A DNA stretch of 36,666 bases, from positions 1 through 36,666 of the forward strand of contig RDYN01000047.1 of the NCBI GenBank assembly GCA_004293365.1, given 5' to 3'. Below the pieces are notes generated by a model. It did no database searches and was not told the origin of the DNA. It saw only the letters and a list, made by a program, of their open reading frames with translations. The DNA is from Oscillatoriales cyanobacterium. GTDB lineage: Bacteria > Cyanobacteriota > Cyanobacteriia > Cyanobacteriales > Microcoleaceae. Below, in pieces: positions 3,255 through 6,216 of the stretch (the first letter of the stretch is position 1; every line of letters starts with the position of its first letter). Both the position numbers and the translations under genes were made by a program.

Positions 3255-3881
3255 ATGGATATTGCAGATTATTACCGACAGTTAGGACTAAGGTCTGGTG
3301 CCACTTTATCGCAAGTTAAGGCCTCTTACCGAAAGTTAGCCAGACAGTATCACCCCGATGTGAATCCGGGAAACGAACAGGCTAAGAATAAGTTTATTGC
3401 TATTACTGAGGCTTATAAGTTTCTGGTGAATATTGCGCCCGCCGATGTTGCGGAGTCGAAAGCTGCCAATTCAAATGTGCCGCCTGCTGCGACAGCGCCA
3501 GCGGAGGCGGTGAAAGCTCAACCGCAGGCAGTTAAGGTAACTCGGAAACAGCAACCCACTGAAGATAAGCAGGATCTGTCGGCGGCGGAAGAAAAGTTAA
3601 AAAAAGATGCTTATTATGAACTGCAACAGTTGCTGAAATATCAGAGGTTTCCACGGGCGATCGCCCTAATTGAGGGTTTGGCCCAGCGGATGCCCGAAGA
3701 TCGGGAGGTGCGACAGTGGCAGGCGATCGCCTATCAGCGTTGGGGACGGCATTTGATCGGAGAAAAGCAGGTTGACAAGGCGAGAATTTATTTGAAAAAG
3801 GCGGTGAAAACTGACCCTCACAATCGGGCTTTGTGGGCGGAAGTTGAGCGTGATTTTCGCCGGTTGGAAGAGATTTATTGA
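3255..3881 (+). CDS. J-domain protein with C-terminal TPR-like region
   Basis: A 208-aa protein. Residues 1-65 form a J domain with the HPD tripeptide (QYHPDVNPG), which stimulates the ATPase of an Hsp70 (DnaK). A low-complexity Ala/Pro/Lys linker (about 70-105) follows, then a helical C-terminus (about 115-205) with two or three TPR-like repeats ending in ALWAEVERDFRRLEEIY. It lacks the Gly/Phe, zinc-finger and substrate-binding regions of DnaJ, so it is a specialised type III J protein. Such J-TPR proteins are common in cyanobacteria without an assigned client. The proximity to clpRP3 fits a proteostasis role, but that is inference. The start at 3255 places the J domain at the N-terminus as expected. 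Confidence 0.88.
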   Translation: MDIADYYRQLGLRSGATLSQVKASYRKLARQYHPDVNPGNEQAKNKFIAITEAYKFLVNIAPADVAESKAANSNVPPAATAPAEAVKAQPQAVKVTRKQQPTEDKQDLSAAEEKLKKDAYYELQQLLKYQRFPRAIALIEGLAQRMPEDREVRQWQAIAYQRWGRHLIGEKQVDKARIYLKKAVKTDPHNRALWAEVERDFRRLEEIY

Positions 3882-4870: not shown

Positions 4871-4995
4871 GGTTTGTAGTGCGGACTTCAGTCCGCAGCA
4901 TAAAAGCGGACTGAAGTCCGCACTACGAACCGTTTTTGTTTGTAGTGCGGACTTCAGTCCGCAGCCTGGGAGCGGACTGAAGTCCGCACTACGAA
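4871..4995. repeat. Tandem pair of palindromic repeats upstream of the kinase
   Basis: Two copies (4871-4931 and 4938-4995) of a palindrome with outer arms GTTTGTAGTGCGGACT and inner GGACTGAAGTCCGC, each able to form a long hairpin. They belong to the same family as 1-100 and 28077-28226. They lie just upstream of the kinase start at 4838 and may have displaced its promoter region. Confidence 0.85.
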
Positions 4996-5079
4996 ATGAG
5001 TGATACTTTATGGGTTGAGAGCTTGCTCGGGCATTCTTTTTTGGTAAAGCGTATCGCTTTGATTGATAAAATAACATAA

Positions 5080-5110
5080 AACCCAGTAACTCTGACCTTG
5101 TTACTGGGTT
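5080..5110 (-). terminator. Intrinsic terminator of the tRNA-like transcript
   Basis: An 11-bp perfect stem (AACCCAGTAAC at 5080-5090 with GTTACTGGGTT at 5100-5110) and a 9-nt loop. Read on the minus strand it is followed by TTATGTTATTTTATC, a U-rich run. It lies about 60 nt downstream of the second tRNA-like element and would end a transcript coming from the 243-aa gene and the RNA elements. Confidence 0.8.
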
Positions 5111-5170
5111 TCTATTTACCGCCCATTTGCACACGCTACCACATTTAAGTCAAGGATTTAAGATTAATAT

Positions 5171-5244
5171 CATCGCGCTCTACCGATTGAGCTACTCCCC
5201 AGTGTTTGGTTGGGGAGGCTGGAATTGAACCAGCAACCTCGATG
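5171..5244 (-). tRNA. Candidate circularly permuted tRNA, element B (3' half first)
   Basis: On the minus strand the 3' half (5244 to 5207) comes first, then a 5-nt spacer AACAC, then the 5' half (5201 to 5171). The 3' half has CATCG, variable loop AGGTT, T arm GCTGG-TTCAATT-CCAGC, acceptor CTCCCCA, discriminator A and an encoded CCA. The 5' half has acceptor TGGGGAG, T8-A9, D arm GCTC-AATCGGTA-GAGC, G26 and CGATG. The halves match at both ends: seven of seven acceptor pairs and five of five anticodon-stem pairs. Only the anticodon loop is open, falling at the outer ends (5' half continues ATATTAATC, 3' half is preceded by AATCAGGT), so the anticodon cannot be assigned. A normal tRNA read in either direction is not possible here. 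An alternative is a relic of tandem tRNA copies that lost both outer halves. Confidence 0.75.
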
Positions 5245-5297
5245 ACCTGATTGTTCCTGACATTCGTTTTGGCGATCGGCGGTGAATGCTGAGTTTA

Positions 5298-5444
5298 GAG
5301 TAATAACTTGCTATTGAATTTGTACGCAACGCTGCCTCTGCCAATTTGGGCTACCCCTCATTATTAGGTTGAAGGGACAGGAGTCGAACCTGTACTGTCA
5401 CAGTTGTACGGTTTAAGTTGAAGTTTGAGATTGAACTTGTACTC
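5298..5444 (-). repeat. Related sequences flanking permuted element A
   Basis: A 13-bp sequence occurs on both sides of element A in the same orientation: ATTGAACTTGTAC at 5430-5442 and ATTGAATTTGTAC at 5313-5325 (12 of 13 identical). Weaker similarity continues for about 20 nt (CAA...TAAAC on the minus strand). This is what would be left if a tandem duplication of a tRNA-like unit with an extended anticodon loop had lost both outer halves, or if the flanks are shared processing signals. Confidence 0.5.
5322..5406 (-). tRNA. Candidate permuted tRNA-like RNA, element A
   Basis: Same order as element B. The 3' half (about 5406 to 5367) has a small hairpin ACTG-TGA-CAGT where a long variable arm would be, T arm ACAGG-TTCGACT-CCTGT, acceptor CCCTTCA, then ACC followed by T, so the terminal A is not encoded. 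After TAATAA comes the 5' half (5360 to about 5327) with acceptor TGAGGGG, T8-A9 and D arm GCC...GGC with a large AAATTGG-type loop. Acceptor halves pair in all seven positions with one G-U. The anticodon stem is imperfect: GTTG pairs with CAAC but the fifth pair fails. D-loop style and variable hairpin recall class II tRNAs (Leu/Ser). It may be degenerate or a structural RNA rather than a translating tRNA. Confidence 0.6.
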
Positions 5445-5484
5445 TGTTTATATCTTAAACCATAACTATCAAAAAAGCAAGCTA

Positions 5485-6216
5485 TTAGCGGAAAATAAAT
5501 TGAAAAATTCGCTCTCCTACTCTCTGTTCTTCAACTTCAGAATTGTTAGCTTCTTCGCGGGAAAACATCACAGCTTTCTGCAATATTTCCACCCTTTGCA
5601 GCAACTCATTGATCCGCTGCGCTGGTAAAGCTCCAGAAAACTTGACAGTGCGCCAGTAGCCGATCGTAATATCTTCGTAATAGACATCCACTTGAGCCGG
5701 ATGGTGTTCCGTAGCTTCAGCTTTAACGTGATTGCGGGGAGTTTTAAAAGTCTTGAGAGTTTGCACCGGTTCTGTTGCCCAACAGTCGGCTGAAGCATCA
5801 AAGTTCCAAGTCTCGGAAGCATCTAAAACAGGAAGTTTTTTGATAAATGCTTGCAACTCTGACAGTTGCTTTTCAATGAATAGTAAATAGCTGACTGGCA
5901 CTTGGCTCAAAAGCACGTTTCCGTCTACAGTTACGTCGGCACGGGCTCTGCAATTTGTCCAGTCTTTGGTTGCGGTTACGTCGAAGAGTTTGGTCAAAAC
6001 TTCTGTTGTTTTGCGGATAATCTCTTCGGCTTTGACTTCGACTTTTTTGGACTCGGGCGGCAGTTGTTCGCCTTCTTCGTCTTTGGGGCGGTACGTGCGG
6101 GAGATTCCCGAAAGCACGGCGGGCTTCTGGAGGGCTTTTTGGGCTTCTGCTAGTTCTTGGATCGATCGGCTTTTGATGCCTTTCTCGATCGCGATAATCT
6201 GATTTAATCGTGCCAT
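5485..6216 (-). CDS. Conserved protein of unknown function, linked to permuted tRNA-like RNAs
   Basis: A 243-aa soluble protein that I recognise only as a highly conserved uncharacterised family, also known from actinobacteria; from memory it may be DUF7873, unverified. No catalytic motif of a named family is evident. Distinctive stretches are RTYRPKDEEGEQLPPES (about 40-56), TKDWTNCRARADVTVDG, CWATEP, EATEHHPAQVDVYYED and IGYWRTVKFSGALPAQRINEL, then a C-terminal helix ending RIFQFIFR. N-terminal and C-terminal parts look helical. No signal peptide or membrane segment is seen. On the same strand, about 75 nt after its stop, come two permuted tRNA-like elements and then a terminator, which suggests a protein-RNA module. 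An RNA-related role is inference from this context. The start ATG at 6216 lacks a clear Shine-Dalgarno sequence, common in cyanobacteria. Confidence 0.85.
   Translation of the reverse strand: MARLNQIIAIEKGIKSRSIQELAEAQKALQKPAVLSGISRTYRPKDEEGEQLPPESKKVEVKAEEIIRKTTEVLTKLFDVTATKDWTNCRARADVTVDGNVLLSQVPVSYLLFIEKQLSELQAFIKKLPVLDASETWNFDASADCWATEPVQTLKTFKTPRNHVKAEATEHHPAQVDVYYEDITIGYWRTVKFSGALPAQRINELLQRVEILQKAVMFSREEANNSEVEEQRVGERIFQFIFR

Follow-up and report, generated by a model that had tools for sequence, protein, structure and literature searches.

The tRNA-like RNAs with which the locus described here can be compared are of several kinds. In the circularly permuted tRNA genes of algae and archaea, the 3′ half of the tRNA precedes the 5′ half, and tmRNA has a dedicated protein partner, SmpB. 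The Y RNA named YrlA was described, in the accessible part of one report (PMC8394870), as an RNA whose stem binds the ring protein Rsr and whose tRNA-like domain binds PNPase. According to the same text, the tRNA-like domain is carried on a stem of the 5′ and 3′ strands and tethers Rsr to PNPase, while YrlA is itself a substrate of tRNA-modifying enzymes.

The window analyzed here is the whole stretch of 36,666 nt of cyanobacterial DNA. On its minus strand, at 5244-5171, the original prediction had placed a complete tRNA cloverleaf in permuted order, and the letters are exactly as claimed: T arm, acceptor, ACCA, AACAC, acceptor, TA and D arm. The T arm GCTGG-TTCAATT-CCAGC (5234-5218) is followed by the 3′ strand of the acceptor, CTCCCCA (5217-5211), which pairs with TGGGGAG (5201-5195) across the loop ACCAAACAC, where ACCA (5210-5207) precedes the AACAC spacer (5206-5202). 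After TA comes the D arm GCTC..GAGC (5192-5177), and the whole is enclosed by a helix, Pd, formed by CATCG (5244-5240) and CGATG (5175-5171), which had been taken for the anticodon stem. The pair counts given for the acceptor (7/7), the T arm (5/5), the D arm (4/4) and the supposed anticodon stem (5/5) all hold in the window. To call the structure a complete cloverleaf was too strong: the anticodon loop is absent, and the supposed anticodon stem extends outward into further helices, in which GTCA and GG pair with TGAC and CC, and ACCGCC pairs with GGCGGT. In addition, a second and similar module, missed by the original prediction, lies upstream of the reported site in the predicted RNA.

Both modules are ordered T arm, acceptor, D arm, and they stand in tandem in a predicted structured RNA of about 365 nt (minus strand, 5447-5082). 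The predicted RNA begins 37 nt downstream of an intact gene on the same strand (5485..6216) for a DUF7873 protein of 243 aa (PF25283; Pfam E 3.1e-113), its likely protein partner. At the 5′ end of the RNA there is a weak promoter-like pair picked by eye, TTTTGA (5474-5469) and TATAAA (5452-5447) with 16 nt between them; a consensus promoter scan reported none at the RNA start. Two covariance models, R1 for module 1 and R2 for module 2, were trained on cyanobacterial loci. Module 1 (5267..5447) is matched by R1 over 181 nt in G000 at E 9.5e-33, the window locus itself belonging to the training set of R1. Near its 5′ end AGAGTA (5440..5445) pairs with TACTCT (5297-5302) to form P1, the helix by which the linker is tied to the RNA's 5′ end. 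Module 1 has a T arm ACAGG-TTCGACT-CCTGT (5377..5393), an acceptor hairpin (5354..5376) of CCCTTCA (5376-5370) and TGAGGGG (5360-5354) with the loop ACCTAATAA and without CCA, and a D arm GCCC..AGGC (5334..5351) with GG in its loop and three pairs; the fourth position of this arm is C-A in the window and is unpaired in every alignment row. The conserved linker ATTACTCTAAACTCAGCATTCACCGCC (5278..5304) contains the 3′ strand of P1 and the 5′ strand of Pa.

Module 2 (5116..5290), which is the span of R2 and is covered by alignments A2, A4 and A6, contains the reported site as its tRNA-like core. Its outer stem (5118..5283), which shows covariation, is made of Pa (ACCGCC, 5283-5278, with GGCGGT, 5123-5118), Pb (5274-5270 with 5138-5134, one pair being C-A in the window itself) and Pc (GTCAGG, 5261-5256, with TCCTTGAC, 5156-5149). 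The RNA is closed by a terminator-like hairpin, CCCAGTAAC-AAGGTCAGA-GTTACTGGG (5082..5108), which was missed by a consensus scan with a loop limit of 8. When 5447-5116 was folded alone, the minimum energy structure recovered the tRNA-like core of module 2. The stability of this fold was modest, and the single-sequence fold is weak evidence because the z-score is only −1.52 and 7 of 100 shuffles were equally good; judged by sequence, the weight for the predicted RNA structure is on conservation and not on single-sequence folding. Elsewhere in the window, at 4873-4996, there are MITE-like palindromic repeats GTAGTGCGGACTTCAGTCCGC with inverted copies, which cause sub-threshold Rfam microRNA matches.

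At the DNA level, 22 of 59 related genomes contain a match, in some cases a short one. Sixteen oriented cyanobacterial loci were aligned with MAFFT, without fitting to the structure; L002 (a 100% match) and L015 and L016 (anchor motif not found) were left out. Conserved letters reach well past the tRNA-like parts in these 16 loci. For module 1 (A1, 15 loci, L013 being excluded for a long insertion in the acceptor loop), 94.8% of the cells are paired, compared with 39-47% in slid controls, and 12 of 31 pairs show two-sided changes, including 5/7 pairs of the acceptor. For module 2 and the terminal hairpin (A2, 16 loci), 96.5% are paired (slid controls 38-43%) and 28 of 47 pairs show two-sided changes, including all seven acceptor pairs, across the permutation, and six of the nine pairs of the terminal hairpin. 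The stems of the reported site are kept in relatives, and among the cyanobacterial loci compensatory changes were found in both the acceptor and the outer stems.

For the comparison across phyla, 51 loci were chosen and fitted to the models, and these alignments are hence biased towards the structure. Module 1 (51 loci) has 93.3% of its cells paired (slid controls 45-47%) and two-sided changes in 25 of 31 pairs; module 2 (50 loci) has 97.9% paired (slid controls 38-43%) and two-sided changes in 34 of 38. All acceptor pairs of both modules (7/7 in module 1) are among those that change on both sides, together with five of the six pairs of P1 and 16 of the 17 pairs of Pa, Pb and Pc, the three helices that lie beyond what had been read as an anticodon stem. 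The unfitted cyanobacterial alignments agree with the fitted ones. Changes on both sides of 7/7 acceptor pairs of module 2 across homologues show that these are not unrelated halves lying side by side, a point on which the original prediction was right. The T loop of module 1 reads TTCRANY in 49/49 homologues, that of module 2 being more variable. L144 and L150 (2/51 loci) keep P1 but have lost the rest of module 1 that resembles a tRNA; by eye, the same holds for L189, L199 and L201.

The RNA and the DUF7873 gene occur together. Among 388 genomes of the order, R1 has a match at E≤0.01 in 74, and DUF7873 is present in 59, several copies being fragmentary or broken. At E≤1e-4, R1 is matched in 47 of the 388; DUF7873 is present in 46 of these 47, and in 45 it lies directly upstream of the RNA on the same strand. 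Some of the weaker R1 matches in the order are partial, and some are without DUF7873. Because several copies of DUF7873 in the order (G020, G024, G028, G372 and others) are fragments or have a stop codon, the pair seems to have been lost repeatedly there.

A scan of a genome collection confirmed at least 443 DUF7873 stretches, and the named loci are the best 80 of these. The titles of these best 80 give Cyanobacteria, Chloroflexi, Actinomycetota, Armatimonadota, Acidobacteria, Deinococcales and Polyangiaceae, or genera thereof, and it is on these record titles that the spread over seven phyla rests. Within the best 80 of at least 443 loci, an R1 match lies downstream of DUF7873 in 72 (67 at E≤1e-6 and five at 1e-4 to 0.02), an R2 match lies beside it in 74 at E≤1e-10, and one or the other is found in 75, of which 11 are cyanobacterial and five (L135, L136, L137, L138 and L142) belong to the training set. 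L140, with a shortened DUF7873 gene and a shortened R2 remnant (E 7e-5), was not counted among the 75. No RNA match was found beside DUF7873 in L145 or in the Herpetosiphon loci L162, L163 and L166 of this set. If spurious ORFs that overlie the RNA are set aside, no other neighbor recurs in more than five of the best 80. A related protein that we take to be ADP-ribosylglycohydrolase-like is encoded downstream of DUF7873 in five of them (L162, L163, L166, L171 and L202), three of which are the Herpetosiphon loci without the RNA.

DUF7873 belongs to a large family: among the candidates scored, 4070 relatives were found at E≤0.001 with the window protein and 6788 with a divergent query. For the window protein, a fold of long helices with two long strands at 151-164 and 176-194 is predicted with fair confidence (pLDDT 83.6, pTM 0.68). 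In Foldseek no solved structure, Ro60/Rsr included, matches the model at E≤0.001, and a second look at the top 1000 with VIA-align gave middling matches only. As there is no clear structural relative, it is the gene pairing that suggests RNA binding by DUF7873. A divergent DUF7873-like clade (P0230-P0349, about 20% identity) is represented at L215 (2640-3359, minus strand), where the gene adjoins another unknown protein and no R2 match is found; some of these divergent proteins carry the source label MazG-like.

Gene and RNA are paired at the sequence level over a wide range of bacteria and phages, with both modules and with covarying stems. We consider it reasonably probable that the predicted two-module RNA and DUF7873 form an RNP working like Y RNA and Ro60, as a scaffold for tRNA-recognizing enzymes. 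The region 5447-5082 would be transcribed as one noncoding RNA, and DUF7873 would take the place of Rsr and bind the long stems. By analogy with YrlA, the tRNA-like modules would dock tRNA-recognizing enzymes, such as PNPase, TruB and Dus-type enzymes, and the DUF7873-RNA particle would bring the docked enzymes to RNA targets, steering decay, repair or protection.

The pair is also carried by phages. A DUF7873 relative is encoded in 72 of 50,697 phage records, and the protein occurs in 4 of 72,556 plasmid records. R1 is matched at E≤1e-4 downstream of DUF7873 in 8 of 11 named phage stretches (Racecar, Phendrix, NiceHouse, Pam2, Fryberger, KpLz-2_45, FBKp24 and PA-SR01); no match at this threshold was found in the stretches of the Microcoleus, Vibrio and Rhizobium phages, whose DUF7873 proteins are among the more divergent. 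Beside DUF7873, R1 or R2 is matched at E≤1e-4 in 28 of 33 viral contigs, with the RNA downstream of the gene in 27 and upstream in L233, and neither model is matched at E≤1e-4 in the other five. Annotated tRNA genes lie near DUF7873 in 8/11 phage stretches, up to 21 in 8.7 kb (Phendrix 21, Rhizobium phage 12, NiceHouse 10, Racecar 9, Vibrio K479 6, Fryberger 2, KpLz-2_45 2 and FBKp24 1), and none is annotated in the stretches of Pam2, PA-SR01 and the Microcoleus phage. Of 11 viral contigs scanned with ARAGORN, seven gave tRNA calls and four gave none. That phage copies so often sit among tRNA genes points to a possible role in the decay, repair or protection of tRNA. In phage FBKp24 (L259), an annotated 'tRNA-Sup-TTA' at 3518-3597 overlaps the R2 match at 3551-3670; it is probably part of the predicted RNA misannotated as a tRNA.

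The main rival explanation takes its support from these tRNA genes in 8/11 phage stretches and 7/11 viral contigs. It holds that the modules are bait, absorbing or inhibiting enzymes that attack or modify tRNA, and that DUF7873 shields the bait; phages would keep the pair next to the tRNAs they encode as a weapon against tRNA-targeting systems of the host. A competitive-inhibitor role proposed for the tRNA-like domain of YrlA, in the accessible part of PMC7790460, also speaks for it. Without an anticodon arm, however, the RNA would offer anticodon nucleases no normal target. Moreover, 4/11 viral contigs and 3/11 phage stretches are without a nearby tRNA gene, and so are most of the bacterial DUF7873-RNA loci (ARAGORN, 55 of the best 80 of at least 443). 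DUF7873 itself has no match to the defense-system models (best E 0.17). A decoy or guard of this kind appears to us rather unlikely.

Alternatively, the structure might act in cis, as a 3′ UTR element controlling or stabilizing the DUF7873 mRNA and possibly as an autoregulatory site for DUF7873. Its constant place is in keeping with this, since the median distance from gene to RNA is 44.5 nt, and in 55 of 72 loci (among the best 80 of at least 443) it lies between 20 and 60 nt. Two tRNA mimics with canonical T loops would, on the other hand, be more than such a role needs. The RNA is upstream of DUF7873 in L233, and it has no adjoining gene in G034, where there is no DUF7873 match, or in G077, where DUF7873 is on another contig. 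Such a role in cis seems improbable.

The original prediction had seen in the site a permuted or two-piece tRNA, in which a cut in the acceptor loop would leave CCA-ended halves that form a working tRNA. Every stem does pair across the permutation, and CCA follows the acceptor in module 2 of the window and in 14/49 (module 1) and 19/50 (module 2) homologues. However, the anticodon loop is absent and the outer stems covary (16/17 pairs), and the acceptor loop, which ranges from 4 to 91 nt in module 1 and from 6 to 117 nt in module 2, is mostly without CCA. In L013 (G003) the module 1 acceptor loop is longer by about 106 nt, a stretch that by eye has imperfect inverted ends; the loop therefore tolerates insertion. 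The permutation is genuine and kept by selection, but the reading as a permuted or two-piece tRNA is not supported, and we see very little likelihood left for it. RNase P or RNase Z may still cut the acceptor loop in the predicted RNA.

Another possibility is that the RNA is YrlA itself and that its partner Ro60 was overlooked. At its curated cut-offs Rfam 15 gave no family in the window; at a loose threshold YrlA (RF02553, cut-off 69 bits) was the best match, at 5263-5144 with 37.4 bits and E 2.6e-6, and a second match was found at 5421-5300 with 22.2 bits. The arms stand in the same order as in YrlA, but both matches are below the curated cut-off. The YrlA model has matches (E≤1) in 49 of the 59 related genomes, none of them above the cut-off (best 46.6 bits), and also in 11 of 14 control genomes; in five of ten loci of other phyla the matches score 25-41 bits. 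TROVE/Ro60 was found at E≤0.001 in 0/29 genomes of the genus, that of the window included, and in 7/59 of all genomes searched, and in the genus the known Y RNA partner is therefore lacking. Over the order, TROVE is present in 104/388 genomes and DUF7873 in 59/388, and both are present in 16, as expected for independence (15.8); no TROVE match is found in 37 of the 47 genomes with a strong R1 match. That the RNA is a YrlA with an overlooked partner is thus highly improbable. By way of working, the predicted RNA is classed with Y-RNA-like tRNA mimics and outside YrlA, because two features that define YrlA, a score of 69 bits and Ro60/TROVE nearby, are lacking.

Other sub-threshold YrlA matches were recorded as well. 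Those at L054 (G036), L059 (G055) and L060 (G050) lie about 1 kb or less from TROVE genes and probably represent the usual cyanobacterial Y RNA that accompanies Ro60. Further ones in the genus (G000:C204 at 41-73 kb; L037, L039, L041, L042, L044, L046 and L050), several of which lie no more than a few hundred nucleotides from unusual tRNA-like calls (Lys, Stop, unknown), are possibly degenerate tRNA arrays.

The YrlA-model matches at L036, L061 and L062 straddle two adjacent tRNA calls; the junction of tandem tRNAs can therefore mimic the order T arm, acceptor, D arm. In 55 of the best 80 of at least 443 loci scanned with ARAGORN, a normal-order tRNA was called over the 5′ part and T arm of module 1 in six, all of them Streptomyces (L172, L181, L184, L186, L203 and L207; four Phe, one Leu and one undefined). 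Decay of tandem tRNA genes could account for these calls and for the tRNA-like letters, but it is next to inconceivable given the two-sided compensatory changes in the acceptors across phyla, and ARAGORN calls no tRNA at the 19 loci L001-L019 or anywhere in the window.

In the literature searched, outside which most subscription papers lie, nothing was found on DUF7873 or on such a gene-RNA pair; a mention elsewhere is possible. The present results provide a candidate RNA partner for a large protein family of unknown function, and they indicate that Y-RNA-like tRNA mimicry is apparently not tied to Ro60. They open a question that can be tested in common laboratory bacteria and phages, namely what the job of the double tRNA mimic is and why several phages keep a copy among their tRNA genes. 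They are also a caution, since tRNA-like letters met in permuted order in a bacterial genome can belong to a tRNA-mimic RNA and not to tRNA genes.

Compared with the known systems, the predicted RNA shares with the permuted tRNA genes of algae and archaea the 3′ half of the tRNA body ahead of the 5′ half, but it has outer stems in place of the anticodon loop and mostly no CCA. With permuted two-piece tmRNA it shares a tRNA-like part whose 3′ strand comes ahead of its 5′ strand; in the window ARAGORN found no tmRNA, and Rfam gave a 42-nt fragment of 17.7 bits against a cut-off of 84. A jumbo-phage ROT/TROVE protein with a tRNA-like partner, as described in the accessible part of PMC7824862, is likewise a phage-borne protein with a tRNA-like RNA, but DUF7873 matches no TROVE model of Pfam at E≤0.001. 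With YrlA, in its complex with Rsr/Ro60 and PNPase (RYPER), the predicted RNA shares the order T arm, acceptor hairpin, D arm, and a tRNA-like domain set on a stem of flanking 5′ and 3′ strands, here P1 and Pa to Pd, which covary. It differs from YrlA in that it is longer, has two tandem modules and scores below the Rfam cut-off, and in that its gene partner is DUF7873 and not Ro60. We put forward tentatively, as a possibility we rate below an even chance, that beside tmRNA-SmpB and Y RNA-Ro60 this is a third kind of dedicated bacterial tRNA-mimic RNP, a mobile, phage-carried cassette found over seven phyla, in which DUF7873 would clamp two permuted mimics so as to direct enzymes that handle tRNA when there is conflict or damage to RNA.
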